Shown: positions 1 through 16,857 of the stretch, piece by piece
Position numbering within the stretch: the stretch's first letter is position 1
Layout: each line of letters opens with the position of its first letter
Source: a virus
Reading direction: 5' to 3' (one strand)
DNA: 21,769 bases
Virus record (IMG/VR): IMGVR_UViG_3300046003_002942
Location: 1 to 21,769 of that record
Program-made: the position numbers and the translations under genes
The notes under the pieces: model-generated
Databases searched by the model: none
Told to the model about the DNA's origin: nothing
Seen by the model: the letters and a program-made list of their open reading frames with translations, nothing else

Positions 1-1898
1 GTACCTGATGCAGTAAATGCTAAGGTGCCATTGCCTTTGATGTAGCCAGTTAAAGTCGATGCACCCGTACCACCATCAGCAACCGCTAAATCAGTAATGC
101 CCGCAACTGAGCCACCAGTAATGGATACGTTGTTGGAGTTTTGCACGCTCATCGTGCCTAACTGAAGGTTATCACGAGCGGTAGATGGAGATACCAAGTC
201 AGCCAAGTTAGCAGCCTTAGTCAGTTTCTCACTGTCCAGCTCATCAATTGCAGCCTGCACGTTGGTAGCTGCCACGTTGCCCGTAGCCGTGTAGGTAATC
301 TGCACAGCAGAGTAATCACCGCTTGCTGCCGTAACCACACCGAGGCGACCAAACACCGAGGCCACAGCATCCGTGTTATCAACCTTTTCCCATGCGGTGC
401 CGTTGCTGATAATCCAGTCACCCACCTCAAAGCTAATGGAAAACTGCGTACCTGCTACCGACACAACGTAGTAATCACCTTGGGTTGTGGATGCAGGTGG
501 GTTAGCCAATGCGGGGTTGTTGGTGCTGGCATTCCATGTGCCCATGTAAGACAACTGACCAAGCACGCTATCTGGAATTTGCGTCAGTGGCACTTTACCA
601 CCTGCATCAAGCGTAGCCACACCGTTAGCGTTGGCTTTCTCAATTGCAGGTATCTTAGCCGCAAGGTCAGTAACAAGATTGGTTACTTGAGACTGAGCAA
701 TCTGGATGTTGTTAGCCGAAATGCTCGTAACACGACCTTTGCTATCAACCGTGGTGGTAGAGGAGCTGGATACGCTGCCATAGGTGCCAGCAGCTACGTT
801 GGTGGTGGTAAGTGTCGGGTTGGGGTAAGTGCCCGTTAAATCGCCACCAGCAGCACCCGTAGGGGTACGCGAATCAGTAAAGCGTGGGTCATCACCAGCC
901 GCAACCGTGTTGGCAGTAGTGCCTACGTTAAGCGTAGAGGAATTGCCCAAGCCCGTAATGTCTGTGTTGGGTATGGTGCCCAAAGCAGTAAAAGCCAAGG
1001 TGCCGCTACCTTTGATGTACCCAGTCAACGTGGATGCACCTGTACCACCGTCTGCCACAGCCAGATCGGTGATGCCAGTGATGTTACCACCCGTGATGGA
1101 TACCGTGTTGGAGTTCTGCGTAGCAATTGTACCAAGACCCAAGTTGGTGCGGGCATCGGGTGCGGTAGAGGCACCCGTACCACCGTCTGCAATGGCAAGG
1201 TCAGTGATACCCGTAATGTTACCACCCGTGATCGAGATGGTACTAGCATTCTGAGTGCTCATCGTACCAAGGCCCGTAATGTCGGTATTTGGTATTGTAC
1301 CTGATGCCGTCAATGCTGAGGTGCCGTTACCCTTCACATACCCCGTAAGCGTAGATGCGCCAGTACCACCATCAGACACAGCTAAGTCAGTAATGCCAGT
1401 AATGTTACCGCCCGTAATGGCGACAGCGTTAGCATTCTGAGTCGCAATTGTACCCAAGCCCGTAATGTCGGTGTTGGGTATGGTAGCCGATGCGGTCAAA
1501 GCAGAGGTACCATTACCTTTAACATACCCCGTAAGGGTTGAAGCACCTGTGCCACCATCAGCCACTGCTAGATCAGTGATACCCGTAATGTTGCCACCCG
1601 TAATTGCTACGGTGTTGGCATTCTGCACACTCATCGTACCCAGCCCCGTAATGTCCGTGCTAGGCACCGTAGGTGATGCCGTAAAGGTAGCTGCACCGTT
1701 ACCCTTAACATACCCAGTAAGGCTAGTAGCATTTGTACCACCTTTGCTGACTGGCAACGTACCATTAACAAACCCAACACCATTTGCGATGGTGTTAAGG
1801 TTGTCCGTGTTGGTGAGGAAATTCATAGGGGCAACTAATGCCCCATTGCTGGTGGTAGCCGTAACAGATTGATTAAGAGGAGTAGATGGGATGCTCAT
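1..1898 (-). CDS. Tail fibre protein built of repeats (3' end outside window)
   Basis: An open frame of 632 codons runs from an ATG at 1898 to the window edge without a stop. The start follows the previous gene's stop directly (TAAC-ATG), with no Shine-Dalgarno sequence. Residues about 45-290 are tandem units of roughly 62 residues carrying [20 protein letters not shown] and GYVKGNGT blocks. Phage fibre signatures follow: [12 protein letters not shown] near residue 350, VDSKGRVTS near 380, [12 protein letters not shown] near 440, and [16 protein letters not shown] near 515. The repeat resumes at the window edge. These motifs are familiar from tail fibre and tail-collar-type proteins that extend from the tail tip and bind the host surface. 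The receptor-binding C-terminus is not in the window, so specificity cannot be guessed. Being the last gene of the tail block fits this role. Fibre identity is well supported; the total length is unknown. Confidence 0.85.
1036..1745 (-). repeat. Tandem 186-bp coding repeat in fibre gene
   Basis: The motif coding (D)GGTGAST-like residues recurs with its edge at 1729, 1543, 1357, 1171 and 1036. The spacing is 186, 186, 186 and then 135 bp, all multiples of three. Another copy lies at 61, after about 975 bp of non-repeat fibre sequence. Copies differ mostly at third positions, and the 135-bp unit replaces the GYVKGNG block with a shorter APDARTNLG segment. This is a protein-level repeat of a fibrous shaft rather than a CRISPR array. 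Confidence 0.85.
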
Positions 1899-1899
1899 G

Positions 1900-3066
1900 T
1901 TAAGAAGGTAGAGAGAAGCCAATTTGATCGGAGGCAACAGAGATAGCGTTGGTGTTGCCCACGGTGACAATGTAAGTCCAAGAACCCGTTGTCGTATCGT
2001 AGGTAGCAGGCACGCCTTGTTTGGTCACGGTATCCAACACCCATTGATACGGGTTGGTTGAAGCGTTGTAATCGTAAGGACGCACCACAAACGGCACGTT
2101 CTGAGCAACTGTGGATGATTTACGGATGAAGTTAGCCACAACGTCATTGGGAAACTGACATTGTACCGTACAACCCACAGGATAGGTATCACTACTCGTG
2201 GTAAGACCACCAAGCAATGTCGTGCTCACCGCATTTGATGCCAACCCAACAATCAAAGGCCGAGCAAAGAAGTATTGGGTAAATGCAACCACTGGTGGGA
2301 TAGGAGTAAGGCTTTCCAAGCTGTAATTCAACGCACGCAACAGCACAGGCGATTGATAGAAAGGCATGACGTTGCCATTGGTATCAATGATTTCTACGTT
2401 AATCACGCTCTGGCATTCAAGAAAATTACCACGCTTAACACCGTTCATGCGTATCAATTCCATTGCCGTAGATGAGATAAGCCGCAAGTAGCCTTGATAA
2501 CCAGCATACGGTGATACAATCGCTGTAAAGGTCGTGGTCTGCAATGGCACCACGCGAGCAATCGTAACCATCAAGAACTGCCGTGCCGTAGATGTGCCTT
2601 CCGTAAGCACCAAGGAAGTAATGGTGCAGTCTGGCACTAGTAATTTACCATTAAAGATGATGGTCGCAACTGCCCCAACTGCACGGTAGGCAATCAAGAA
2701 CTGCCCATCACCCTGCCTGCTGACATCCACACCACCGCTTGCAATGATGCTAGAATTGGAATTAAGGGCATTTTGAAGACCCGGGGCATCAATGTCCCAC
2801 CGCAAGGTAATCGGGTCTGTGGCTCCAACCGTTAGGCTAAAGACACCGTTGGTTTGGGCTGATGACACATCACCAATCGTTACCCGTAGGACGTTGGTTG
2901 TTGGGTCAATGTTGGTATCAATAGCCCCATTGGTGGTAAAAAAGAATTTATGCTCAGTTTGTGAACCTACCGTCAGCACCGGAAACGGCGCAGGTAAAGT
3001 GTTCAGCAGGCTAACCGTGCGGGCACGGGCAAGATCAGTGGCAGATGTGTTGATGAAATGGTTCAT
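1900..3066 (-). CDS. Unknown distal tail structural protein, 388 aa
   Basis: I do not recognise the family. The protein is rich in Thr, Val, Ile and Asn with alternating beta-strand-like stretches, has no signal peptide or membrane segment, and contains few Cys (in CTI, ECQ and CTVQCQ contexts). The composition suits an all-beta virion protein. Its ATG overlaps the stop of the gene before it (ATGA at 3066-3063), and its stop is one base from the fibre start, so it is probably translationally coupled to both. Position between Cys-rich tail genes and the fibre suggests a tail-tip or fibre-attachment component. This is an inference from position only. Confidence 0.6.
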
Positions 3067-5181: not shown

Positions 5182-6459
5182 TTAAATGGCTTTAACAAAC
5201 CTGCGTTGCCGTTCCCAAATGCTGCCATACCAAAGACTCAGAACTGAATCTTGTGATTCAATGGAATAAGAATTAACATTACCTGAATCTGTTGTAACAT
5301 TACTTTTGTAAGCTGCTAAAGTAGGTGAAGTAGCCACTATACCAAACCCACCATCGCTAAGGTACTCAGCAACAAATTGACCTGACGTGGTTGTGCTTCC
5401 ATAACCCCACGGTGTTTGGTAAAGGTAACGTGTGCCAAACTTAACTGGAATTTGGTCAACTTGGGTAATGGGATAACTCGTTGTGCCGTCACCAGCCGTG
5501 GTGGGTGGCACCGTGGCATAAGGAGCGGTGTTTCCTGCCACTAATTGAGCACGCCAAGCATAAAGGCTGGTAGATGTCCCTGCGTAGGTCGGATTGCCTG
5601 TAACGCCAAGCAAACGTACCTGTAATTGATTTGGGGAGGATGCTGCCGTGCCAGTCACATTGATGCGCCACCAACCATCACCCACGCTGGCAATACCCCA
5701 GCCGTTGCCGTAGATGTATTGGTCAGACAGTGGTTGGCCGATAGCCAAATCAACAGACACGTTGGCAAAGGTGCCTTGACCCCCGTTGTAAAGGCCAACG
5801 TCAACTCGGCTATTGTCCCCTGCTTTGACGAACACGCTGCCAGTAATTAAACCCGTTGCCGTGTTAGCACTTTGGCTAACGTAATGCTGACTGTTGCCCG
5901 TGGTATCGGTAATGCGGGCTGCTGATTGAGTAGCCCCAGCGCAAACGGGAATTGTGGCATAATTTCCCGTTGAAGTAGCACCCGACAAAGACCAAGGTGA
6001 AGCATTGAGGTTGTCGTAACTGGTCAACAAATTGGAAAAAGCTACGGTGTTGCCCACCATGTAGTAATCTTTGGTTTCCTTGGTGGTAACGATGTGGCTG
6101 TAAGGGTTGCGGCCCAACACCAACAGCGTGCCTTGATAACCGGGGTAGTTGTAAACATCCGATGAGAAATCATTCCATGACGTAGGCAACGTGGTGTAAA
6201 CCCGTGTCCACTCTACCAGCCCACCTAGACGATCTTGGAAATCTACGTCATCTGCAAAGTAAACCTGTGGTAAATTGGGGTGTGGGGTGTTGGCGTCAGG
6301 CCGACTGTAATATGCCCGCAACTGCATAAAGCGGGTACGGTATACAATGATCTGACTGTTTTGCGGGTATGGGCGGGTTTGCTCAAACGCACGAGTAGGC
6401 GTCTCAACCGAGAACGCTGGTTGATCTGCCGCTGTTTTGTAGCCAAAGATGGTAGCCAT
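5182..6459 (-). CDS. Distal tail protein with internal lectin-like domain, 425 aa
   Basis: Residues 1-125 and about 320-425 appear to form one structural unit, interrupted by a jelly-roll, carbohydrate-binding-like module at about 143-318. The module has the pattern known from many phage fibre and tail proteins: an opening SNLLTSYDNLNASPWSLSG, then VFVKAG near 210, a GWWRINVTGTA strand near 262, and a closing LYAWRAQLVAGNTAPYATVP near 299. Such modules bind sugars or stabilise trimers. The gene directly follows the tape measure gene (TAAC-ATG), the place where lambda-like phages encode the distal tail protein. The flanking parts match no hub protein that I know. The structural role is likely; the exact function is open. 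Confidence 0.6.
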   Translation of the reverse strand: MATIFGYKTAADQPAFSVETPTRAFEQTRPYPQNSQIIVYRTRFMQLRAYYSRPDANTPHPNLPQVYFADDVDFQDRLGGLVEWTRVYTTLPTSWNDFSSDVYNYPGYQGTLLVLGRNPYSHIVTTKETKDYYMVGNTVAFSNLLTSYDNLNASPWSLSGATSTGNYATIPVCAGATQSAARITDTTGNSQHYVSQSANTATGLITGSVFVKAGDNSRVDVGLYNGGQGTFANVSVDLAIGQPLSDQYIYGNGWGIASVGDGWWRINVTGTAASSPNQLQVRLLGVTGNPTYAGTSTSLYAWRAQLVAGNTAPYATVPPTTAGDGTTSYPITQVDQIPVKFGTRYLYQTPWGYGSTTTSGQFVAEYLSDGGFGIVATSPTLAAYKSNVTTDSGNVNSYSIESQDSVLSLWYGSIWERQRRFVKAI

Positions 6460-6460
6460 G

Positions 6461-8356
6461 TTAGTTTACGGTGGGTGTTAAACTGTTCTTAATTGCCTCA
6501 AGCAACTGGTTAGAGGTCGTGATCTCAGCAGCAATTGAACTAGAATCAGGTGTAATGCGTTGTTGCATCCCAGAGCTACCAAAAGATAAGCGATCAGCTA
6601 CGCTTGTTTCCAATCCTAGGGCACGTTGTTGCTGGTAGGCTGCTTCACCCGGGGCACCTGTTAAAACAGCGTCACGGGCTTGCTGACGAGCTTTGGCAGC
6701 TTGTCTAGCCAACCGTTCAGTTTCAGATAGCGGACGTGGGCGACCATTGGCAAAGGTACGACCTGCACCAGCAACCTGCTCACTAAGCGACTGCGACACG
6801 TCAATCTGACGCTGCTGCATATTTATTTGAGATGCACGATAGCTTCCTTCAGCTTGTATTTGATTTGCTCTAGCACTAGCTTGTTCAAGTTTTGTACCAT
6901 ACATTTCAGCAACTCTAACTGCTTCTTTTGCAATGTTTAATTGGACTTTTGCTAGTGAAATTGCATTAGCTCCACCAGTTTCTTGAAGGTAATTTATCTT
7001 AATAATCCCTTGTTCCTTTGAACTAATATTAAGAGATTCAGCTTCAATAGTATTTTGTGCTGCTTGTAAGGCAATTTGCTTTTGGATTAAATTGTTTTCA
7101 GCAGATGCTATTTGTAATTTTGTACCACCATTTGTTTTAATATCCTGAAGCTGTTTTGTCGCTGCGTCTTGTTCGATTTGAGCAATATCAATAATATCAA
7201 CTTTACGTTGCGACTGGATTTCTTGAATAGCAGTTAAACTGTTTTTATTGGTTTGAAGATTTGCCGTTTCAATTGCATTAGCACGCTTTGCTGCAAAAAC
7301 TTCAATTTCAGCTTGTTTAACCGCAAGTTCAGATTGTTTAATTTCAGCGGGATTTTTTTGCGCTAAAGCTATTCTATTTCTTTCTTTACGAGCATCTATC
7401 AATTTTTGTTCAGCTACGGCAACTGCGGTTAATTGACTGATTTCCTGCAATGAAGAAATGTTTTTTAATGATTCAGCTTTGATTGCAAGAGTAGCATTTT
7501 CTTTAACTAATGCACGCTGAGTTAATTCACTAGCATTGGCATATTCAGTTTCTTTTACTTTAGCATCTTCTACTCTTTGTTTTAATTCAGCATAGGTACT
7601 TGCATACGCGCTGCTAATTAACATCGCAGTTTGATGATATGCCTTGCCCAAAAATGATGTGCCTTCTAAATCTGCAATATCCTTTTTTGCCGTTTTTACA
7701 AATTCAACTGCATCTCTAGCCCTACGTTTAGCAATGGTGGCTTCAGCAGTTAAGCCATATTTGGAAATTGCAGTCTGTTCTGTCGAAGCCAATTGAGCTT
7801 CTCCTGTTTTTTCTTCAGAAACAGCTTCAGTTGCTTTCCGTTGAAAATAATTTGGTACAGCTTGAATAAGCGATGTCATTATCGCGCCAGCACCCATGAA
7901 CAACAAACGTTTGAACATACCACCACCAACCAAGGATGCAACGGAAGTCCCTACTTCTGCTGCGCCTTCACCGCCACGAACTGCACCACCACCACCACTT
8001 TGTGCAGCACTTTCCTTGGCTTCTTTTCGGATTAAAGATTGAAGTTGAGATTGTTTTTTAATGATAGCCAATTGCGCTTCTAAATGAGCTTGTGAACCTT
8101 GTTCATAAGCCTGTTTTGTCTTAGATAATTCAGTTATTTGCGTAGCTACGCTCTTGATTTTATCAATAGTGCTTAATTGCTTAAACATTTCTTGATTTAT
8201 AGCTTCGGTAACTTTTTTAGTACCGTTCAAACCACTAAAAGCAGCATCAGTCTTTTGACCAACCTGCTGCATAACCCCTGTCAGCTTTTGGGCCTGAGCT
8301 TCTGCCTTGGAGGTATCAAGGGATATTTTAAGGGCGACTTCTTGGGAAAATGACAT
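6461..8356 (-). CDS. Tail tape measure protein
   Basis: The 631-residue protein is dominated by long Ala/Gln/Lys/Glu-rich helices with coiled-coil spacing. A Gly-rich hinge (about 121-146) is followed by a hydrophobic stretch at about 147-168 containing MFKRLLFMGAGAIMTSLI. This layout is typical of tape measure proteins, which fix tail length and help pass DNA into the cell. Using the usual ~1.5 Å per residue, the tail would be roughly 90-100 nm. No lytic or peptidase domain is visible. The middle of the gene (about 6840-8240) is clearly AT-richer than its 3' end (6461-6830), suggesting a recombination join. The ATG at 8356 has an AAAGGA element 9 nt upstream that overlaps the previous stop codon. 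Confidence 0.8.
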   Translation of the reverse strand: MSFSQEVALKISLDTSKAEAQAQKLTGVMQQVGQKTDAAFSGLNGTKKVTEAINQEMFKQLSTIDKIKSVATQITELSKTKQAYEQGSQAHLEAQLAIIKKQSQLQSLIRKEAKESAAQSGGGGAVRGGEGAAEVGTSVASLVGGGMFKRLLFMGAGAIMTSLIQAVPNYFQRKATEAVSEEKTGEAQLASTEQTAISKYGLTAEATIAKRRARDAVEFVKTAKKDIADLEGTSFLGKAYHQTAMLISSAYASTYAELKQRVEDAKVKETEYANASELTQRALVKENATLAIKAESLKNISSLQEISQLTAVAVAEQKLIDARKERNRIALAQKNPAEIKQSELAVKQAEIEVFAAKRANAIETANLQTNKNSLTAIQEIQSQRKVDIIDIAQIEQDAATKQLQDIKTNGGTKLQIASAENNLIQKQIALQAAQNTIEAESLNISSKEQGIIKINYLQETGGANAISLAKVQLNIAKEAVRVAEMYGTKLEQASARANQIQAEGSYRASQINMQQRQIDVSQSLSEQVAGAGRTFANGRPRPLSETERLARQAAKARQQARDAVLTGAPGEAAYQQQRALGLETSVADRLSFGSSGMQQRITPDSSSIAAEITTSNQLLEAIKNSLTPTVN

Positions 8357-8362
8357 GGTTGG

Positions 8363-9118
8363 TTATCCTTTTTTAGACTCTGCCATGATTCGGTTCATTT
8401 CTTCAATACATTGTGAACGCATTGAGTCAAAATTACCGTAGTTCTCTTTGCCAGAGGTACGCTTGTCAGCAGCCCGCTGGTATTGAATTAGACGAGGAAT
8501 TGGGGTATCCCCTAGCAGTTTACCGCTCATGGGGTCAATTGGCCCTAAACTCGACGCAACGGCTACTAGAAGGGGTGCTACGGAATGCACCGTAGGTGGC
8601 TTACCCATGTGCTTTTTTTCTTCAGGCGTAGGTTCACCACCTGATGGTAGGTCGATAAACACTCTATCCATAAAGGAAAATATCTCGCTCACGCACTCAT
8701 CGTACCCGTGTGCGATGACGTACCGAAACACCCGATTACGAAACTTACCCAACCTGTAGGCATTCCTTAATGGTTGGCTGGGGTTGTTTTTCTGGTTCAA
8801 TTGCCACAAGAAAAACTCAACATCCTTCATCATTGGCGCACTTTGCCATACCACGAATGCGTTGTCCGTACCATCGAGGTACAACAGGTCTTTGGGGGTA
8901 ATTAGACGAATGTCCTCACCGCATACCTTAAACGTCACATCATCGGCAAACGCATCGGCACGACGCGAGGCTTCTTCTGCTAATGACACACCAATGGATG
9001 GTGCGTATTTGGTGTTCCACAAGTATTCGTAAAGCGTCTCTGGCCCAGCAAGAATGGCTGCTTTAAGTTGTTCCTCTGGTGTTGGAGCAGGTGCGGGTGC
9101 TGGATTGTCTTCTTGCAT
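8363..9118 (-). CDS. Probable tail assembly chaperone (by position), 251 aa
   Basis: The gene lies between the probable tail tube gene and the tape measure gene, where siphophages encode the tail assembly chaperone that coats the tape measure protein. An N-terminal PAPAPAPTPEE linker is followed by a mostly helical, charged body. Recognisable segments are AEEASRRADAFADD, a CGEDIRLITPKDLLYLDG strand region near 66-83, and an aromatic-rich LRNAYRLGKFRNRVFRYVIAHGYD region near 117-140. I see no second reading frame or convincing slippery site that would give the lambda G/GT-style extension, so if it is the chaperone it is a single-product version. The start at 9118 follows a terminator and has no Shine-Dalgarno sequence. 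Confidence 0.55.
   Translation of the reverse strand: MQEDNPAPAPAPTPEEQLKAAILAGPETLYEYLWNTKYAPSIGVSLAEEASRRADAFADDVTFKVCGEDIRLITPKDLLYLDGTDNAFVVWQSAPMMKDVEFFLWQLNQKNNPSQPLRNAYRLGKFRNRVFRYVIAHGYDECVSEIFSFMDRVFIDLPSGGEPTPEEKKHMGKPPTVHSVAPLLVAVASSLGPIDPMSGKLLGDTPIPRLIQYQRAADKRTSGKENYGNFDSMRSQCIEEMNRIMAESKKG
8366..8374 (-). promoter_or_regulatory. Ribosome binding site of tape measure gene
   Basis: An A-run followed by GGA lies 9 nt before the ATG at 8356. The GGA is the last sense codon of the upstream gene, so termination and re-initiation are adjacent. It is one of the few plausible Shine-Dalgarno elements in the window. Confidence 0.4.
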
Positions 9119-9130
9119 GGTTTGTAAATA

Positions 9131-9164
9131 GAAAAGCCCGCCCGTGCATGACGGTGCGGGCTTT
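9131..9164 (-). terminator. Intrinsic terminator after tail tube gene
   Basis: A 9-bp perfect stem (9133-9141 with 9156-9164; AAAGCCCGC) is extended by a 4-bp stem (9142-9145 with 9151-9154) past a one-base bulge, with a 5-nt loop. On the minus strand it is followed by TTTTCTATTT. Placed between the probable tube gene and the chaperone gene, it would lower downstream expression relative to the abundant tube protein. Confidence 0.8.
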
Positions 9165-9187
9165 CATGTGCCGTATGTGGTTAGGCG

Positions 9188-9568
9188 TTAGATTTTCTGC
9201 ATAGCCTGAATATCGCAGACCCAGAAATCACGAGGACGTTCTGGCATACCGATTTCAGACACAACGTAGGTGATGTTCGTGGTAGCACCGTTGGTGGTAC
9301 GACGAGTCACAATAAACTCATCAGAGTTATTTGGAACGTTGGTGGTGTTGGTAGCGAATTGGAGCTGACCACGCAGGGTGTTGCGCTCTTGGAACAACAC
9401 GAAGCCGTTAGGAGCACCGAGTTCAGTCGTGCGACTGGTGGATGCGGTGGGTTCAGTTGGGCTGTATTCGTTGCAGATGAAACTCACACCATTAGCGTTG
9501 CCAGTGGTGAAAGTGAGGATGCGCGAGCCATAGCCTACGCCAGTGGTGGATGAGTATGGAAGTGCCAT
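9188..9568 (-). CDS. Probable major tail (tube) protein, 126 aa
   Basis: This small, beta-rich protein has no cysteine pattern of note and no membrane segment. Strand-like segments are SRILTFTTG, GVSFICNEYSP, NGFVLFQERNTLRG, DEFIVTRRTT and TNITYVVSEIGMPERPRDFW. It lies between tail-completion-type genes and the chaperone/tape-measure pair, the usual place for the tube subunit. A strong terminator directly follows it, as is common after an abundant structural gene. At 126 residues it is short for a siphophage tube protein, though myophage tubes of about this size exist. I did not recognise a specific family, so the call rests on position and fold composition. The start at 9568 lacks a Shine-Dalgarno sequence (TTATTTT-ATG). 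Confidence 0.5.
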   Translation of the reverse strand: MALPYSSTTGVGYGSRILTFTTGNANGVSFICNEYSPTEPTASTSRTTELGAPNGFVLFQERNTLRGQLQFATNTTNVPNNSDEFIVTRRTTNGATTNITYVVSEIGMPERPRDFWVCDIQAMQKI

Positions 9569-9586
9569 AAAATAAGGTTGGGTTGT

Positions 9587-10090
9587 TTAACTGTCCAAGT
9601 AGTTAGCAGGTGGAATTACTAAATCAATCTGAAAACGTAATTCTGTGCGATCTGTTTCTGTGGCTTCATCGGCACGATAATTATCACCTTGGTCAATGAT
9701 GTCCAACATACCGTAGCCACCGATGATATTAGCGGTCATTTTCTGTGCTCCACGAGACAAAAGGTAACGCACTCGGCCTACCATAGCCCCATGTTGTGAA
9801 GTAACACCCGTGTTAATTTGGCTATGACGTTGAGTAATAACGGTAACGGACAAAGTACCGCGACGGTAATTGTAGTATGCCGTACCCGTGGAGGTAAAAT
9901 TCATCAAATCATTGGCTCGGATAAACCCACCAGACTGCACTTCTATGCGGTTTTTAGGCATTTGTAAGGGCATTCTAGGCCCAAATGCTGCCAAGGTGGT
10001 GCCAGCGGTATCTTGAGTTAAAACAGTCACAAAACCAGCAGCAATGTTGTCACCGATGTTTTCAGATTGGCTGGCAGTTGGGGCACTCAT
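9587..10090 (-). CDS. Probable tail terminator or completion protein, 167 aa
   Basis: The length and the position just before the probable tube gene match the gpU or tail-completion class, which caps the tail tube where it joins the head. The sequence starts with SENIGDNIAAGFVTVLTQDT, has an extended basic region around YYNYRRGTLSVTVITQRHSQ, and ends with the strand LRFQIDLVIPPANYL; this alpha/beta pattern is consistent with that class. I see no decisive motif. Its ATG overlaps the stop of the preceding gene by 4 bp (ATGA at 10090-10087), indicating coupled translation. Confidence 0.5.
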   Translation of the reverse strand: MSAPTASQSENIGDNIAAGFVTVLTQDTAGTTLAAFGPRMPLQMPKNRIEVQSGGFIRANDLMNFTSTGTAYYNYRRGTLSVTVITQRHSQINTGVTSQHGAMVGRVRYLLSRGAQKMTANIIGGYGMLDIIDQGDNYRADEATETDRTELRFQIDLVIPPANYLDS

Positions 10091-10902
10091 TTGAATTGTA
10101 AATAGGGATAGGCTTGCTGGAGCTTCTTGAAATCCTTGTTCAGCAGCAAACCAAAAGTTGCGGCTTGGTATGCTATGCGTTGATTAACCACTTCGTTCAA
10201 AGCCACATCAATTCGTGATTCGCGTATGCGCGGGTATCGGTTGATTAACGTAAGGCTAAAATTGCCGTTAGATTTAGCTTTGATGGAATAACCGTTTAGG
10301 TGGTACTTACCATCAGACGCTCGTGCGCTTCGTATTTTGGATAAATCCTCAGTGGTAAAGCTGCCGCCGCCACCACCTGCTGACTCAATGCTTGTACCGA
10401 GGGAATCGGAGATTTGCAGGATGGATTGCCGAGCTAAACCAATGGCACCTTGAGCTGCTTTGATAATACCGGGCAAGATGCTGCCGTATTCGTTAGCGTG
10501 TTTGTTAATGGTATTCCACGTCCTTGTTTTGTAATGCTTGTTGTCAGGCGTAAAGGCACCCGCATCATTCACATTGCCCACAATCTGGAATTTGCCGTTG
10601 CTGGTTTTACGCCAAATACGACCAACCTGACCACCTTTACGTCCGGTGTTAGCAGTCATGCCAAATGCCGTTAGCGTGGACATACGGGCTTGTCTGGTAG
10701 CTCGGCTACGACTGCCCAACAAAACCTTAGCAGGGTTAGCAATTGGCGTGTGTGCCATCCATTGCTTGCAAATGATGGATGCCTCGCCCATCGCCCAGTT
10801 TTCAAAAGTGCTGCCTGCGCTAGTAGCAATAGCGTTACCAATAGCGGAAAATTTGCTTAACTCGGCAGGTTCAAAAGGCATCAGAGGTCGCTTGGACGGC
10901 AA
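10087..10902 (-). CDS. Neck or minor tail protein candidate, 271 aa
   Basis: This basic protein lies where HK97 gp10-like or lambda gpZ-like neck and tail-completion proteins are encoded. The N-terminal part is helical (residues 1-60), with a basic segment containing GSRSRATRQARMSTLTAFG near 63-81. A low-complexity GGGG linker near residue 177 is followed by a DGKYHLNGYSIKAKSNGNFS beta region. The size is larger than HK97 gp10 and closer to gpZ. The family match is not secure. It overlaps the gene before it by 22 bp and the one after it by 4 bp, typical of co-translated head-tail joining genes. Confidence 0.5.
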   Translation of the reverse strand: MPSKRPLMPFEPAELSKFSAIGNAIATSAGSTFENWAMGEASIICKQWMAHTPIANPAKVLLGSRSRATRQARMSTLTAFGMTANTGRKGGQVGRIWRKTSNGKFQIVGNVNDAGAFTPDNKHYKTRTWNTINKHANEYGSILPGIIKAAQGAIGLARQSILQISDSLGTSIESAGGGGGSFTTEDLSKIRSARASDGKYHLNGYSIKAKSNGNFSLTLINRYPRIRESRIDVALNEVVNQRIAYQAATFGLLLNKDFKKLQQAYPYLQFK

Positions 10903-11207
10903 GTGAAGATGTAATGCGCCAAATCAGTGTTCACAGCCTGTACAACCCACTGACCTTGCTGTGGCCCACCATCAACCTGAAGGATTTCACGAATGTATTT
11001 TAATGGGTCGTTGGCAAATTGAATACGAGGAGCGTAAATCACAATTTCATTTTCGGATTCATACCCCGGCTCCCTCAAATGCATCATGGATGCCGTGGAT
11101 TGCACGACACCCGTGTAGTTCTCGTTCGTTAAACGGAATGGTATGGGCATCCCGGTTGTGGATACCTCTAAGAACGCTTCATTAACTTCTTTTTCAAATC
11201 CGTCCAT
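10881..11207 (-). CDS. Head-tail joining protein candidate (gpFII-like), 108 aa
   Basis: This small protein has beta strands around GMPIPFRLTNENYTGVV, NEIVIYAPRIQF and GQWVVQAV, followed by AHYIFTC. Size and order fit the head-completion stopper class (lambda gpFII or similar), which joins the filled head to the tail. It is the first gene after the modification cassette and its terminator-like hairpin. A GTAGGA element lies about 10 nt before the ATG at 11207. The assignment is by position and size rather than by a diagnostic motif. Confidence 0.5.
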   Translation of the reverse strand: MDGFEKEVNEAFLEVSTTGMPIPFRLTNENYTGVVQSTASMMHLREPGYESENEIVIYAPRIQFANDPLKYIREILQVDGGPQQGQWVVQAVNTDLAHYIFTCRPSDL

Positions 11208-11229: not shown

Positions 11230-11252
11230 AAAAGCAGGTCAATCCTGCTTTT
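11230..11252 (-). terminator. Terminator-like hairpin closing the cassette
   Basis: A perfect 9-bp inverted repeat (11230-11238 with 11244-11252; AAAAGCAGG) encloses a 5-nt loop. The loop contains the stop codon of the glycosyltransferase-methyltransferase gene (TGA at 11241-11239). On the minus strand the 3' arm ends in four U residues, then ACAG. The stem is AT-rich at its base and the U-tract is short, so termination may be partial. Confidence 0.55.
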
Positions 11253-12648
11253 CAGCGGCTAACTTGGGGGCTAGACGACGGTTAATGAATTTCATCATAC
11301 CCTGACTAGGCTTGTTTTTGTCACCGTAGTAGCGTTGGTGGCAATGCAAGTAGTGGGTTTCGGATAACAGCGTGTTAAGGAAAAACACATCCATGTCGTC
11401 GTGATAACGTACCAAAATGGCATCCAATTTCTCAAGTTTGTTATGAGCTTGGAAGGATGCGATAAGGTCGCGCTCATTCCCGCCAGAGTCCAATTTGAGG
11501 ATTTGTGCGTCTGGCAGTTCTGGCACGTCGTTGGGTGTGACTTCTTTTTCATAAGCCACAAGTTTTTGGTCTTCGTTATCCTTCGCAATGCTCTTTAACG
11601 TGTCTTCAAGGTATTTTACCACCGTTGAATCGCCATCGTAGCAATGCACGGAAGCCCCTTTCCATCGCTTTACAGCCCATCTTGGGAAGGCACCCACACC
11701 AGCACCTATGTCGATGATGGAAAGTGGCTGATTTGGCCCGTAATTGAACAGTGGCACGTCGTAGGAGCCGTTGAGCACGTCACCATCATGCAAATCGTCG
11801 ATTGGGTAGTCTTTCGGCCACAAACGGACAAAACGCTCACGATGCCCACCCATTAGCCCCGGGATGCGTGGGCCTGAAGCCATAAAAGTACGGATATGGT
11901 CATGGGGCATACCGTAACGCTGTGCCATCATGTCCACCATCTCGTCATCGCTAATGGTAAATTGCAGAGGGTACACGATCTTGCCCACATGACGTAATTG
12001 GCAACGGGTGTCTGCGTAAATCTCGCCACCATCCTCAAGCACTCGGTTACAGAATGCCCAATCCTCGGACAAGTAAGTGCCATCTACGGCACGCATGGGG
12101 AAGAAATCGTACCGGATGCTGGTTTGGTCAGGGTCGCCACGATAAACCATTTCAGGGTGCTTAGAAATCATGTCCTCAAGGGCTTTGCGCGTGATGAGCA
12201 ACGCACCCGTACCAGCGTGTTTGATTTTAAGGTAGCCATTTTCATCTACCTTTTCACCGGGGATGTAATTCACCACCCAATCCAACGATGGCTGTTTCTT
12301 GGGATACAACCCGCACACGATGTCCTTGTTGGCATTCAGCAACCGTTGGAACTGCCGTGGCTCAATGATAATGTCTGAATCAAGGAAGAACAAATGCGTG
12401 CAATCAGTCTGAAGGAATGAGTACGCGAGGTTGTTACGGGCACGAGCAACACCATCGTTCATCATGTAGCGAACCTGCGTCTCGCATTTGCACGAGGACG
12501 CAATGATGCGAATAGATTCAGAAGTGTGCAGCTCCAATTTCCAATCTGAGGTAGCAACGGCAATAAATACCTTGGGAAGTTTTGGCACCTCAACCAATGC
12601 GGTTTCGGATGGAGCTGGGAAAGTGAGTTCAGGAGGATTAGTTGACAT
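11239..12648 (-). CDS. Bifunctional glycosyltransferase-methyltransferase fusion, 469 aa
   Basis: Residues 25-230 look like a GT-A glycosyltransferase. There is an N-terminal FIAVATSD strand, a DSD motif at 90-92 within CTHLFFLDSDIIIEP for metal and nucleotide-sugar binding, a GTGALLITRKALEDM segment, and the SEDWAFCNR acidic motif at 194-202 typical of family-2-like enzymes. Residues ~305-469 carry a Rossmann SAM-binding motif (IIDIGAGVGAF, 311-321) followed by VHCYDGDS (334-341), resembling FkbM-type methyltransferases. The likely activity is sugar transfer plus O-methylation; the acceptor is unknown. I chose ATG 12648 because it lies 4 bp after the upstream stop (TAATTTT-ATG). An in-frame ATG at 12723 would lie inside the previous gene and add 25 residues. 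It is the last gene of the cassette. Confidence 0.8.
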   Translation of the reverse strand: MSTNPPELTFPAPSETALVEVPKLPKVFIAVATSDWKLELHTSESIRIIASSCKCETQVRYMMNDGVARARNNLAYSFLQTDCTHLFFLDSDIIIEPRQFQRLLNANKDIVCGLYPKKQPSLDWVVNYIPGEKVDENGYLKIKHAGTGALLITRKALEDMISKHPEMVYRGDPDQTSIRYDFFPMRAVDGTYLSEDWAFCNRVLEDGGEIYADTRCQLRHVGKIVYPLQFTISDDEMVDMMAQRYGMPHDHIRTFMASGPRIPGLMGGHRERFVRLWPKDYPIDDLHDGDVLNGSYDVPLFNYGPNQPLSIIDIGAGVGAFPRWAVKRWKGASVHCYDGDSTVVKYLEDTLKSIAKDNEDQKLVAYEKEVTPNDVPELPDAQILKLDSGGNERDLIASFQAHNKLEKLDAILVRYHDDMDVFFLNTLLSETHYLHCHQRYYGDKNKPSQGMMKFINRRLAPKLAAEKQD

Positions 12649-12652
12649 AAAA

Positions 12653-13384
12653 TTATTTAGCGTAGGTTGCAGAGTAACGAGCGATTTCACCGGGGATGAT
12701 TTCCATGTGTTGAAGTTCACCATTCATTCGGAACATCCCAAATTCAGCGGTAAGGTTGTCCTCAATGTGGAAACCACCTTTCTCCAACGATGCTGCTACC
12801 AGACTCTCAGGATGAAATGAGCAACCAGCAGAAAGCAAAGCAGGGACATTCTCGTAGGTTTCAAAATAAGCCTTGGCTGCTTTGACACCTAGCACAGCAA
12901 AACGGTCATTAACCCCACCGTAGGTGCCCCACCAAGGAGTGTATGCGTCATCCTCATACACGGGTACATCAAATTTGAACTTGTGGAAATGCAGATCAGG
13001 ACGGCAGCGAATCACCGTATCAAATGCTTCCAAGTCTCCCGTGCGTTCGTTGGTAAACTTCCATGCACGACTAAGGTGCCACAGTTGGCGCATGATGCCT
13101 TGCAAGGGTGATACCCCCGGCGTCTTTGTCGGAGTAATGCTGTACGGTGCGTGCTCTGTGAACGATTTGTCAGGCAACGTCAGTTCAGGTGGCGTAACTT
13201 TCTCAATGTGTACGTTAGCCCAATCTTTCTTCAACAATTCTGCTGACTCGGCTTGTTCGTCATCGGCGCATGACACAAAGAAATGCGGATTATCGAACTT
13301 TCGATACACTGCCCATTTTTGCGATGGGTAGCAGCGTGCAAATGTACGCATTTGGCCTGACAGGATGATAGCGGTGTTACTCAT
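12653..13384 (-). CDS. Glycosyltransferase-like protein, 243 aa
   Basis: The protein opens with AIILSGQMRTF, a start shared by a family of glycosyltransferase-like proteins seen in phages and capsule loci. It then has FDTVIRCRPDLHFHKF (121-136; RxRPD) and GVNDRFAVLGVKAAKAYF (157-174), where GT-A-like members carry acidic and aromatic donor-site residues. There is no signal peptide or membrane segment, so it should act in the cytoplasm on nucleotide-sugar donors. Donor and acceptor cannot be read from sequence. It overlaps the preceding gene by 4 bp (ATGA) and is followed 4 bp later by the fusion gene, so the two transferases are probably co-translated and may act in sequence. Confidence 0.7.
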   Translation of the reverse strand: MSNTAIILSGQMRTFARCYPSQKWAVYRKFDNPHFFVSCADDEQAESAELLKKDWANVHIEKVTPPELTLPDKSFTEHAPYSITPTKTPGVSPLQGIMRQLWHLSRAWKFTNERTGDLEAFDTVIRCRPDLHFHKFKFDVPVYEDDAYTPWWGTYGGVNDRFAVLGVKAAKAYFETYENVPALLSAGCSFHPESLVAASLEKGGFHIEDNLTAEFGMFRMNGELQHMEIIPGEIARYSATYAK

Positions 13385-13710
13385 GGTTGTTTTGTGTGTG
13401 GCTGGAAAATCTTACGATCAGAATTGTTTGGGATATAAAAGGTCAGGTTGTAATCGGCAAAATATTGACCGGGCTTCAAAACACCCTGTGTGCAAATCCA
13501 ATCCCAAAAGGTCGCTTTTTTACGAAGTATCAGCAGCAAGGCATCTTTTTGTTCAAAATTAACGTAGAAGAATCGCCCGTGGTAATCACGCAGGTACAAC
13601 CAATCATTGCCTGACTGCACCCAATCAAAACCTTCAGGTGCTTTGCGTAGGCTAGTGTAAATACCCCAGCCTAAAGCAGAGTAATTCAAATATGGAGGGG
13701 TGTCGGTCAT
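13381..13710 (-). CDS. Unknown cassette protein, 109 aa
   Basis: I do not recognise this protein. It is aromatic-rich (many Trp, Tyr and Phe), with segments GWGIYTSLRKAPEGFDW, DWLYLRDYHGRFFYVNF and FWDWICTQGVLKPGQYFADY. It has no membrane segment or signal peptide. It is coupled to both neighbours by ATGA overlaps (13710-13707 and 13384-13381), so it is an integral part of the modification cassette. The dense aromatic content would suit a small carbohydrate-handling or partner-binding protein, but this is conjecture. Confidence 0.6.
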   Translation of the reverse strand: MTDTPPYLNYSALGWGIYTSLRKAPEGFDWVQSGNDWLYLRDYHGRFFYVNFEQKDALLLILRKKATFWDWICTQGVLKPGQYFADYNLTFYIPNNSDRKIFQPHTKQP

Positions 13711-14264
13711 GTGCGTTTTAAAATACGGCTAAGACCAAGCAAGCCGTTGTTGTTGTCCCAATGACGCATCACCTGCCATTGGTCGTTGTTGGCAAGAAAC
13801 TCGTAAATCGCACGAGTAATACCCGTCTGACCATTCTCACCATTGTCACCAAAAATAACGGTATCGTGCAAAAAGATAAAGTGATCTACCCTGTGAGCAA
13901 ATTTCAATTCAGCCCGCACTTGGTCAGCCGTGTGCAGGGTGTCGATAAACAACAAGTCGCAGATTGGAATGTCCTCAAGCGTTTTGGTGTCAGCTTTGGT
14001 GAACTTCCAAGTGGTACGCAGGTTCTCAGGTGGGGTGTACGGTGTATCGTTAATGTCAAAGCTGTGTAGAATGCCTCCCCCGTTCGATTCTAGGCCATGT
14101 AACAGGGCAACCGTACTGTTACCAGTCCTAGTGCCAAATTCCACGATAGAACCGCACAGATAGGCATAGCCTGACAATGTGCTGAGGTGTTCGTTGATGT
14201 CTTTGTGCGTACCGTTACGACAAGCCATACGTTCTTGGTAATCTTTTTCTAGGTCTTGGTTCAT
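13707..14264 (-). CDS. Class I SAM methyltransferase (family 24-like), 185 aa
   Basis: A Rossmann SAM-binding motif, VEFGTRTGNST, is visible at 41-51. It is followed by an acidic strand end (SFDIND, 68-73), then DLLFIDTLHTADQVRAEL (103-120) and FIFLHDT (129-135). This is the layout of Methyltransf_24 and cephalosporin-hydroxylase-like proteins, which often O-methylate sugars in surface polysaccharide loci. The protein is short and appears to be a single domain. I chose ATG 14264, 4 bp after the preceding stop and with a GGA element 9 nt upstream. An ATG at 14294 lies within the preceding gene. In the cassette it would methylate sugars added by the neighbouring transferases. The substrate is an inference. 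Confidence 0.75.
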   Translation of the reverse strand: MNQDLEKDYQERMACRNGTHKDINEHLSTLSGYAYLCGSIVEFGTRTGNSTVALLHGLESNGGGILHSFDINDTPYTPPENLRTTWKFTKADTKTLEDIPICDLLFIDTLHTADQVRAELKFAHRVDHFIFLHDTVIFGDNGENGQTGITRAIYEFLANNDQWQVMRHWDNNNGLLGLSRILKRT

Positions 14265-14268
14265 AGAA

Positions 14269-14463
14269 TTATTTCCACTTAGGAGGACGACCACCCAACA
14301 GTCCGTTTCTACGGGCTGCTGCTGTTTTGGCGCGTGATTTCACACTGCCAGCTTTGGCAAAGCGTGATGGCACAGTTTTCTTCTTTTTCATGCGGGATAA
14401 ATAACCGATGAATAACCCAACAACTACCTGCAAGCATAAACCCAACAAAAGCAAAAACCCCAC
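14269..14463 (-). CDS. Small basic protein, possible N-terminal membrane segment
   Basis: The C-terminal 40 residues (from the ATG at 14391) are very basic: MKKKKTVPSRF, then KSRAKTAAARRNGLLGG and RPPKWK. Small phage proteins ending in an AAARxNGxxGGRP motif are known to me, but not their function. A GTG at 14463 would extend the frame by 24 residues forming a strongly hydrophobic stretch (GFLLLLGLCLQVVVGLFIGY) followed by basic residues, as in a single-span membrane protein. That GTG lies inside the stem of the upstream terminator, and the hydrophobic codons come partly from its T-rich tail. The 40-residue form is therefore an equally good reading. The next gene follows 4 bp after the stop. 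Confidence 0.45.
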   Translation of the reverse strand: MGFLLLLGLCLQVVVGLFIGYLSRMKKKKTVPSRFAKAGSVKSRAKTAAARRNGLLGGRPPKWK

Positions 14464-14483
14464 CCGAATTAACGGATGGGGTT
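14453..14483 (-). terminator. Intrinsic terminator after decoration gene
   Basis: An 11-bp stem (14473-14483 with 14456-14466; AACCCCATCCG against CGGGTGGGGTT, one G-U pair) has a 6-nt TTAATT loop. On the minus strand it is followed by TTTTTGCTTTTG. It ends the head gene run and separates it from the modification cassette. Confidence 0.85.
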
Positions 14484-14511
14484 CTTACTATTAAAACAGA
14501 CCTAAGGGAAA

Positions 14512-14892
14512 TTAGGCTTGGGTGTATTGTTTCTGGCTGAAACCAACAACGCTAACGGGGAACGAAGGCGAGTTCGTGCCACCGATAACACGGTCAATGC
14601 GGCCATAACGGTAAACTTCGCGGGTGTCCACAGAGACAACTTGCGAGGTAGCACCCGTGATCTGCGTGAAGGCAACATTGGCATTGCTCCAATTGGAGTT
14701 GTCCGACGATTGCTTGAACACGAGGTCAAGGGTGGGGCTGGTGCCAGCCGTAGCGTTGCCAGCGTCCACACGAAACAGCACGTTACCGATATAACCGTTC
14801 ATATCGTATGGCGTGCCGTTGGCGGTTGCGGCAACCGCTGCCACAGGGAGGGCAGCGATTGGAGTGACGTAATTAGGGAGATCGTAGATCAT
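14512..14892 (-). CDS. Probable head decoration protein, 126 aa
   Basis: This small beta-rich protein lies directly downstream of the major capsid gene. Its pattern is GYIGNVLFRVDAG, SPTLDLVFKQSSDNSNWS, FTQITGATSQVVSVDTRE and YRYGRIDRVIGG, ending in SFPVSVVGFSQKQYT. I recall this pattern from small proteins encoded next to HK97-type capsids in many phages. The likely role is to bind the outside of the expanded capsid and stabilise it. A capsid-vertex role or another minor head role is also possible. A strong terminator follows, fitting high expression. An AAAGGA element lies 10 nt before the ATG. Confidence 0.55.
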   Translation of the reverse strand: MIYDLPNYVTPIAALPVAAVAATANGTPYDMNGYIGNVLFRVDAGNATAGTSPTLDLVFKQSSDNSNWSNANVAFTQITGATSQVVSVDTREVYRYGRIDRVIGGTNSPSFPVSVVGFSQKQYTQA

Positions 14893-14931: not shown

Positions 14932-16857
14932 TTACTGAGCAGCCGAATCCGTGGAAACACAGAACGAAGGCCAGTGACGGACACCGAAATCGGTGAACAG
15001 GTTGACGGTAACGACAACTTGGTTGTTCGCCGCTTGGGTGTATGGGTCAACGACGACATCGTAACCAGCCCAGTCGAAGAACATAGCCTGACCCCACGCA
15101 CCGAAGATCGCTTTGTTGGCGTTGCTGCCAGTGGTAGCGATTTGGTTCGTGATGTTCACGGGATAACCGTTGGTCATGTTGTCATCACCCGAGAGGAACA
15201 CAGGGTAATTCGGGACTTTGACGGTGGTCTTCCACTTGGCGCGAACCGTGGGGTTCGTGAGCCATTGCATCGTGCCGAGGTCAGCGTTCGCAGACTGAAT
15301 CTGCTGTTCAAACTTAACGACGTTCGCCCAAGTAGGAGCGGTGCCGAAAGTGACGCTGGTGATGTTGTTGCCGCCGCCCGTAGAATCGGTGGTAGGCCCA
15401 TTGAGGATGCCCATAGGCTGCGAACCACCCGTGCCTTGGATACCAGCCAAATCTTTAGCGATAGCGATAATGCGAACATGGTCGTCACGCACAAGGGCTT
15501 CCGCATCGAGGGAGGACTGGGCCAGCAATTGCTTGCTGTAAGCCGTGCGAGCAGCAAGACGGCGAGGAGTAGCCGCGAGCTGTGCAAACGACTGCTTGGT
15601 GTCGGTAACAGCGTCACCTTCAGCCAGCCAGTAAGCGGTAGCCGCACCGGACTGACGTGGGATGGCGATGTTGCCAACCAGACCGCTCATCGTACCAACG
15701 CCGAGTTGGGTGAGGAGGGTGCGGTTACGAAGCAGCTCGATGAAGGAACCACCAAGGAAGTCCGTCGCAACAAGAGCACCCGCTTGGGAGAAGTTGTTGG
15801 TTTGGAGCTGACGTTGGAGGTTTTGACCGTAACGGCTGTTGGCGAGGCTAGGCGAAACGCGAAGCATCGCTGCCGTCATCTCAGGGTCAGCGTATTCAGC
15901 CATATCATGCGGCATGATGAAACCGCCAGCATGGGCTTCACGACGGTATTGCTTAGAAGCAGCGTCGGAGGCTTCTTTTTCCAGACCATCAAGAGGACGG
16001 TTTTGGGAGAGAAGGTTGATAGCGCGGGTCAGGCTGTACCGACGCTTTTCTTTCTTGTTCATGCCAATGACAGCGGGCTGGCTGACAGCGGTAGCCTTAA
16101 GGTGATCTTCCACGACGAATTTGCGGAAGCTATCGAGGGATTCGCCATTCACGATGGCGTCCATAACACGCTCGGAGGAGACTTTGAAGTTCTCACCGAT
16201 AGCGCGGATATTGGCAACTTCATCCTTGCGGGTGACGTTGGCGTTGGAGGGAGCAGGAGCACGCTCGGCAACCGTAACGGCTGGAGCAGCAGGAGTATTT
16301 TCAGCGGACATATTAGTTTTTGGTTTCTCTAAAGGTTGTGGTTGGGAACGACCCACGCCAACGGAAGCGTCGGCTGGGATGCTGACGAGGCTAATTTCAT
16401 ACGGTTCCCACGAGTCCACACGGTAGCTGTCCCCAGCATCGGTGTTTTTCTCCGCGAGTACCATATTCTTCACACGGTAGCCTACGCTGACCAAGCTACG
16501 GATACCGTCTTGCACGTCCTGAAAGATGTCTAAGCCATGCTTGGAGCGGTTCTTTGAGAACCGGACAACCGCACGAGCTTTGCCGCCTTTGATTTGGCAG
16601 CTTTCCACGACGCCGATCTGGTCTTCAGGGTCGTGGTTAAGGAGGAGAGGAGCTTGTTGACGAAGACGCGAGAGGTCGCACGCCTTATCGGTACACTCCA
16701 AAATTTCATTACCAAAGAAGCGTTCAACCGGAGCTTCAGAAGCAAACGATAGCTCAACGGTACGTTTGTCGGCATCCATCGACCCACGTTCAACATTGAA
16801 CTCGCGGGACATGGCTTTTAAGCGACTGTCGCTTAGATCAATTGGTTTTTTATCCAT
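14932..16857 (-). CDS. Prohead protease fused to HK97-fold major capsid protein
   Basis: Residues ~25-172 are a prohead serine protease (S78/U35 type). The catalytic His lies in LLLNHD (H75), the Ser in SLVSVGY (S124), and the segment WEPYEISLVSIPA (150-162) completes the fold. Residues ~183-320 form a charged, Ala/Pro-rich linker plus helical region, as in HK97 delta or scaffold domains. Residues ~325-641 are an HK97-type major capsid protein: FLGGSFIELLRNRTLLTQLG, AIPRQSGAATAYWLAEGD, a CATH-like E/A-loop body, and GQAMFFDWAGYDVVVDPY near the end. Such fusions are known in other phages. The protease would cut the scaffold and linker during maturation. An in-frame ATG at 16311 (M183) could give the capsid part alone. 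The start at 16857 has no Shine-Dalgarno sequence. Confidence 0.9.
   Translation of the reverse strand: MDKKPIDLSDSRLKAMSREFNVERGSMDADKRTVELSFASEAPVERFFGNEILECTDKACDLSRLRQQAPLLLNHDPEDQIGVVESCQIKGGKARAVVRFSKNRSKHGLDIFQDVQDGIRSLVSVGYRVKNMVLAEKNTDAGDSYRVDSWEPYEISLVSIPADASVGVGRSQPQPLEKPKTNMSAENTPAAPAVTVAERAPAPSNANVTRKDEVANIRAIGENFKVSSERVMDAIVNGESLDSFRKFVVEDHLKATAVSQPAVIGMNKKEKRRYSLTRAINLLSQNRPLDGLEKEASDAASKQYRREAHAGGFIMPHDMAEYADPEMTAAMLRVSPSLANSRYGQNLQRQLQTNNFSQAGALVATDFLGGSFIELLRNRTLLTQLGVGTMSGLVGNIAIPRQSGAATAYWLAEGDAVTDTKQSFAQLAATPRRLAARTAYSKQLLAQSSLDAEALVRDDHVRIIAIAKDLAGIQGTGGSQPMGILNGPTTDSTGGGNNITSVTFGTAPTWANVVKFEQQIQSANADLGTMQWLTNPTVRAKWKTTVKVPNYPVFLSGDDNMTNGYPVNITNQIATTGSNANKAIFGAWGQAMFFDWAGYDVVVDPYTQAANNQVVVTVNLFTDFGVRHWPSFCVSTDSAAQ

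Follow-up and report, generated by a model that had tools for sequence, protein, structure and literature searches.

A candidate virion glycosylation cassette at the capsid-neck junction of an uncultured phage

A compact cassette of glycosyltransferase (GT) and methyltransferase (MT) genes lies between the capsid and neck genes of an uncultured phage, and we think that its products probably glycosylate virion proteins with methylated sugars. This proposal draws on sequence comparisons and on analogy with characterized phages. To our knowledge, virion glycosylation is documented in few phages, chiefly mycobacteriophages, and a compact cassette of GT, MT, and GT-MT genes at a fixed junction would extend it to uncultured phages. 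We analyzed the whole of a 21.8-kb virus record, here called the window, together with related contigs labeled L002 to L255. On the minus strand, the gene order is terminase, portal, protease-capsid fusion, putative decoration protein, cassette, and neck/tail genes, as follows.

14932-16857, minus: protease-capsid fusion gene
14512-14892, minus: putative decoration (head) protein, 126 aa, outside the cassette (phrog_5707, E = 1.4e-11)
14450-14489, minus: intrinsic terminator between the decoration gene and the cassette
14392-14449, minus: leader with a near-invariant block (40-nt core, from comparison with L005 and L006)
14269-14391, minus: small basic protein, 40 aa (MKKKK...GGRPPKWK), ORF kept in L005 and L006
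13707-14264, minus: predicted class I methyltransferase, Methyltransf_24 (PF13578), 185 aa (E = 2.1e-11, alignment)
13381-13710, minus: 109-aa protein, dispensable (present in L006, deleted in L005)
12653-13384, minus: glycosyltransferase-like protein, 243 aa (phrog_13607, weak DUF7796), GT-A-like fold
11239-12648, minus: GT-MT fusion, 469 aa, with an N-terminal GT2/Anp1-like part (phrog_1574) and a C-terminal class I methyltransferase part
11230-11252, minus: hairpin around the fusion stop codon, no convincing terminator
8363-11207, minus: neck/tail genes assigned by position (108, 271, 167, 126, and 251 aa)

The original prediction had placed five co-directional genes between the capsid/decoration and neck genes, and the open reading frames bore this out, with all five (14391 to 11239) on the minus strand. 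The junctions were also as claimed: ATGA overlaps join the MT gene to the 109-aa gene and the 109-aa gene to the 243-aa gene, and 4-bp gaps separate the small-protein gene from the MT gene and the 243-aa gene from the 469-aa gene. Base composition was equal in the cassette (47.9% GC) and the window (47.8% GC). Homologs of the 167-, 126-, and 251-aa genes sit between the capsid and tape-measure genes in L194, and in L026 the genes at this position hit families of head closure and tail terminator proteins. We trimmed the cassette gene starts by alignment with the relatives. An extended start for the fusion at 12723 was rejected because L005 and L006 begin at the equivalent of 12648. An extended GTG start for the small protein at 14463, giving a hydrophobic N terminus, was likewise discarded, since in L006 this stretch contains a stop and a frame shift; for the same reason, we read the leader block as noncoding. 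The starts at 14391, 14264, 13384, and 12648 follow A/T-rich sequence with no clear Shine-Dalgarno motif, unlike the decoration and neck genes, which have an AGGA-like site.

The 185-aa methyltransferase scored 45.1 bits against Methyltransf_24 (PF13578), above the curated cutoff of 26.3. The C-terminal half of the fusion reached 20 bits against the FkbM methyltransferase family (TIGR01444), below the cutoff of 37.7, and for this half Foldseek supports only a predicted class I methyltransferase fold; the AlphaFold2 model of the fusion was usable for the methyltransferase half only. The 243-aa protein was modeled with a pLDDT of 62, and its best Foldseek matches were all GT-A enzymes. The DxD and ED motifs of the fusion GT are conserved among relatives, as are the glycine-rich (SAM-binding) motifs of both methyltransferases. 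Between the window and L005, dN/dS was 0.13 for the MT, 0.07 for the 243-aa GT, and 0.05 for the fusion. These values fall within the range of the neighboring structural genes, indicating purifying selection, and by their motifs and dN/dS the enzymes look functional. The 40-aa basic protein matched no family. A search of genome contigs returned no cellular relatives of the fusion, tblastn with the MT and the 243-aa GT gave no match in named phages, and neither the fusion profile nor the MT profile had a significant match among PDB sequences.

We propose that the two soluble GTs (the 243-aa protein and the GT half of the fusion) would transfer sugars from cytoplasmic nucleotide-sugar donors to a newly made virion protein and would then lengthen the chain. 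Methylation of the sugars would fall to the Methyltransf_24 protein and to the C-terminal half of the fusion; the fusion would thereby couple sugar transfer with methylation. Produced together with the late genes, the cassette would give a particle coated with a short methylated glycan. Within this scheme, we infer the enzyme activities, the sugar, the order of steps, the acceptor, and the benefit. The virion is suggested as the target by the enzyme families, by the solubility of the proteins, by the recurrence of GT and methyltransferase genes at this junction, and by the precedent of Corndog (both described below). Candidate acceptors are the adjacent decoration protein, the capsid protein, and a tail protein. 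Serine and threonine make up 18% of the decoration protein. Many relatives have a homolog of it 3' of the capsid gene, whether or not they carry the cassette, so the presence of this family alone is no pointer to the acceptor.

Phage GTs often change the O antigen, and the cassette might instead alter glycans of the host surface, such as LPS or capsule, and in this way block, for instance, superinfection or receptor trapping by debris. Such a role would be in keeping with the frequency of GT2 and FkbM-like enzymes in polysaccharide loci, with a weak match to HfsG, and with the location of several GT homologs outside structural modules. However, we found no membrane segments in the cassette proteins (Kyte-Doolittle hydropathy stayed at or below 1.6 in every 19-residue window), and neither the polytopic membrane Gtr protein nor the flippase of gtrABC O-antigen conversion has a counterpart among the five genes. 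Soluble enzymes suit cytosolic transfer from nucleotide sugar to protein and are a poor fit with gtr-type O-antigen conversion. The capsid-neck position, moreover, recurs in unrelated phages, and the expected late timing is late for a surface change. We consider host glycans an unlikely target. Some phages also glycosylate modified bases with dedicated GTs, but a role in hypermodification of phage DNA (glycosylated or methylated bases) seems highly improbable here, given that the GTs are similar to families acting on polysaccharides or proteins and that a Pfam scan of the ten ORFs of the remaining genome revealed no base-modifying partner gene.

We looked across the related contigs to see how the cassette is distributed. 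It is kept in the near-identical or close contigs L002 to L005 and in L006, where the fusion is 75% and the 109-aa protein 61% identical. In L005 the 109-aa gene is missing except for a remnant of its 3' end; its presence in L006, a more divergent contig, shows that L005 lost it by deletion. L111 (65% capsid identity) carries an MT, a 103-aa ORF of another kind, a radical-SAM enzyme similar to B12-binding methylases, a GT, and the fusion. L191 (63% capsid identity) carries an MT, a radical-SAM enzyme, a second Methyltransf_24 enzyme, a GT, and the fusion, and in L193 (62% capsid identity) the cassette site holds a radical-SAM gene and coincides with the contig end. This L193 gene (4650-6485) is split by a 270-aa HNH-bearing intein (5301-6110; PF14890, E = 7.6e-11) that sits inside the iron-sulfur cysteine motif (compare CPYKCCFCAWP in L191). 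By eye, L111 and L193 have a ribbon-helix-helix-like small protein at the position of the 40-aa basic protein, and in L191 the terminator and the methyltransferase gene are separated by the gene for a 245-aa basic protein (12339-13076), for which Pfam gave no match.

A profile search of 105 further relatives, defined by their capsid and each extending 3 kb or more downstream of it, found a cassette gene in L191 only; searches with PF13578 and phrog_1574 in 44 of these records had the same outcome. The empty site is seen in L194 and L198, which have homologs of the 167- and 251-aa genes after the capsid gene and no cassette. L194 also has a homolog of the 126-aa gene after its capsid gene, and 64 nt lie between the capsid stop and the next gene start; in the window, 3.3 kb separates the decoration gene from the neck genes. 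Present at one site in some relatives and absent from it in others, and with the 109-aa gene missing from L005, the cassette has the distribution of a moron-like insertion, and the presence/absence comparison named in the original prediction came out in its favor. The possibility that these genes are an always-present neck or capsid component does not hold, as they are absent from L194, L198, and nearly all other relatives. In the sequences compared, the cassette is clade restricted and modular. Identity with L002/L004 was 94 to 100% through the cassette and dropped to 74 to 86% right after it, and in that one recombination the cassette remained with the capsid side. Prophage-like relatives at 30 to 40% capsid identity are spread over many phyla.

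The varied content of the site (radical SAM, second methyltransferase, unassigned ORFs, intein) could also mean that it is a passive insertion place for accessory genes acting on a nonvirion target, such as a small molecule or a host protein. Yet the GT and methyltransferase core stays constant while the accessory genes vary, and the same pairing reappears at the same junction elsewhere; we regard a passive site as improbable. L255 (36% capsid identity), a short contig, has a GT-MT fusion directly 3' of its decoration gene. Two metagenome phages with a P22 coat carry, between coat and neck, a GT beside a methyltransferase (MW202573) or a GT fused to one (MW202691). At the coat-neck junction they share with the window a phrog_1574-like GT and a methyltransferase, either side by side or fused; unlike the window, they have another type of coat protein, a GT only ~25% identical, and no second GT. 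In L118 and L119, a stand-alone GT gene falls between the major head gene and the structural/tail genes that come next. The other GT homologs lie in replication or early modules or near tail-fibre/tail genes. A position at the capsid-neck junction is therefore a tendency and no rule, in a sample drawn by GT similarity and biased accordingly, and because homologous GTs occur in replication/early modules, membership of this GT family is by itself no indication of a virion target.

Virion glycosylation, our preferred reading, has its nearest parallel in mycobacteriophages. Those of cluster O carry an O-methyltransferase gene and three GT genes between portal and protease, and the Corndog modification genes are expressed yet their products are absent from virions, for which the authors proposed capsid modification (PMC4351075). 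Freeman et al. (2023), as cited in PMC12363180, reported that Corndog, Che8, and Myrna have glycosylated virion proteins and that Corndog virion glycosylation requires gp38. The gene tables and sequences of Firecracker and Dylan stood in for Corndog in our comparisons. Corndog gp35-38/Firecracker gp33-36 are like the window in that a PF13578 O-methyltransferase and several GTs are packed in the head region, and the window shares the hallmark of several GTs plus an O-methyltransferase within the structural genes. The Corndog-type genes lie between portal and protease, whereas the window cassette follows the decoration gene, and the window has a GT-MT fusion, whereas Firecracker has none. The Firecracker O-methyltransferase and the window MT both score above the PF13578 cutoff, and a direct comparison of the two with shallow profiles gave no clear similarity. 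The GTs of the window and of Corndog/Firecracker belong to different PHROG and Pfam families, with profile comparisons, again between shallow profiles, below 6% probability. Homology of the cassette to the Corndog-type enzymes was thus not detectable at this profile depth, and the likeness to Corndog lies in composition and placement among head genes, with a remote relationship perhaps beyond the reach of such profiles. In the GT of phrog_8858, the C-terminal part (220-395) matches the Firecracker O-methyltransferase, an arrangement like that of the window fusion, so GT-MT fusions were already known; the window fusion itself does not match phrog_8858.

Tentatively, we suggest that the capsid-neck junction may be a recurrent landing site, filled independently by different lineages with virion-glycan modules of unrelated or fused GT/MT genes. 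In some of these modules, a B12-type radical-SAM enzyme might add a C-methyl group to the sugar. If so, the sugar coat would be a rapidly swappable trait, separate from the receptor-binding proteins, in uncultured phages and mycobacteriophages alike. The natural variants (the empty site, the single-gene deletion, the radical-SAM versions, and the P22-like counterparts) could show what each enzyme contributes and what a methylated sugar coat does for the particle.

A terminator had also been predicted ahead of the cassette, and it held up. The hairpin at 14489-14450 has 17 pairs (-28.8 kcal/mol, z = -6.7) and a T-tail, and homologous terminators with changed stem bases lie 3' of the decoration gene in L005, L006, L111, L191, and L193. 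A strong terminator was likewise found 3' of the major capsid gene in 17 of 104 relatives without the cassette, and the same search in control stretches inside the major capsid gene found none (0/105). T7-type phages have a terminator after the capsid gene, and the window resembles them in its strong hairpin and T-tail after the capsid module. Since such terminators also occur after the capsid gene where there is no cassette, we assign the leading terminator to the capsid module and do not take it as proof of a moron. The 40-nt core of the leader is almost identical across L005 and L006. A promoter scan of 14391-14450 gave no sigma-70-like match, yet the conserved block sits at that place. The exact 21-mer of the leader was not found in other viral contigs, so the core is limited to this clade. 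Its conservation suggests that the near-invariant block is probably regulatory.

At the other end, the hairpin at 11230-11252 is a real fold (z = -4.7), but the terminator scan did not report it, its T's lying within the stem with no T-tail after. The hairpin is altered in L002/L004 and L005 and gone in L006, and in L111 the stop of the fusion gene overlaps the neck start (ATGA), which leaves no space for a terminator between the fusion and neck genes. We therefore rejected a second terminator at this position. Of the "terminator-bracketed" cassette in the original prediction, the capsid-side terminator is real and the closing hairpin is not a terminator. Of the two terminators expected of a moron, only the upstream one is there, and the insulation of the cassette is confined to the capsid side. 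What is best supported in that earlier reading is a glycosyl/methyl-transfer cassette that likely targets the virion. Under virion glycosylation, the capsid-side terminator would let cassette dosage differ from that of the capsid, and on the neck side the cassette would be read through together with the neck genes.

Two further genes showed repetition or exchange. A tail-fibre-like gene with many repeats of one type (27 protein letters, not shown) is present at window 3-1970 and at L135 14834-18673. In the putative tape-measure gene (window 6461-8356), the middle is ~40% identical in L002, L004, L005, and L006 and the flanks are 80 to 98% identical in close relatives, a modular swap.
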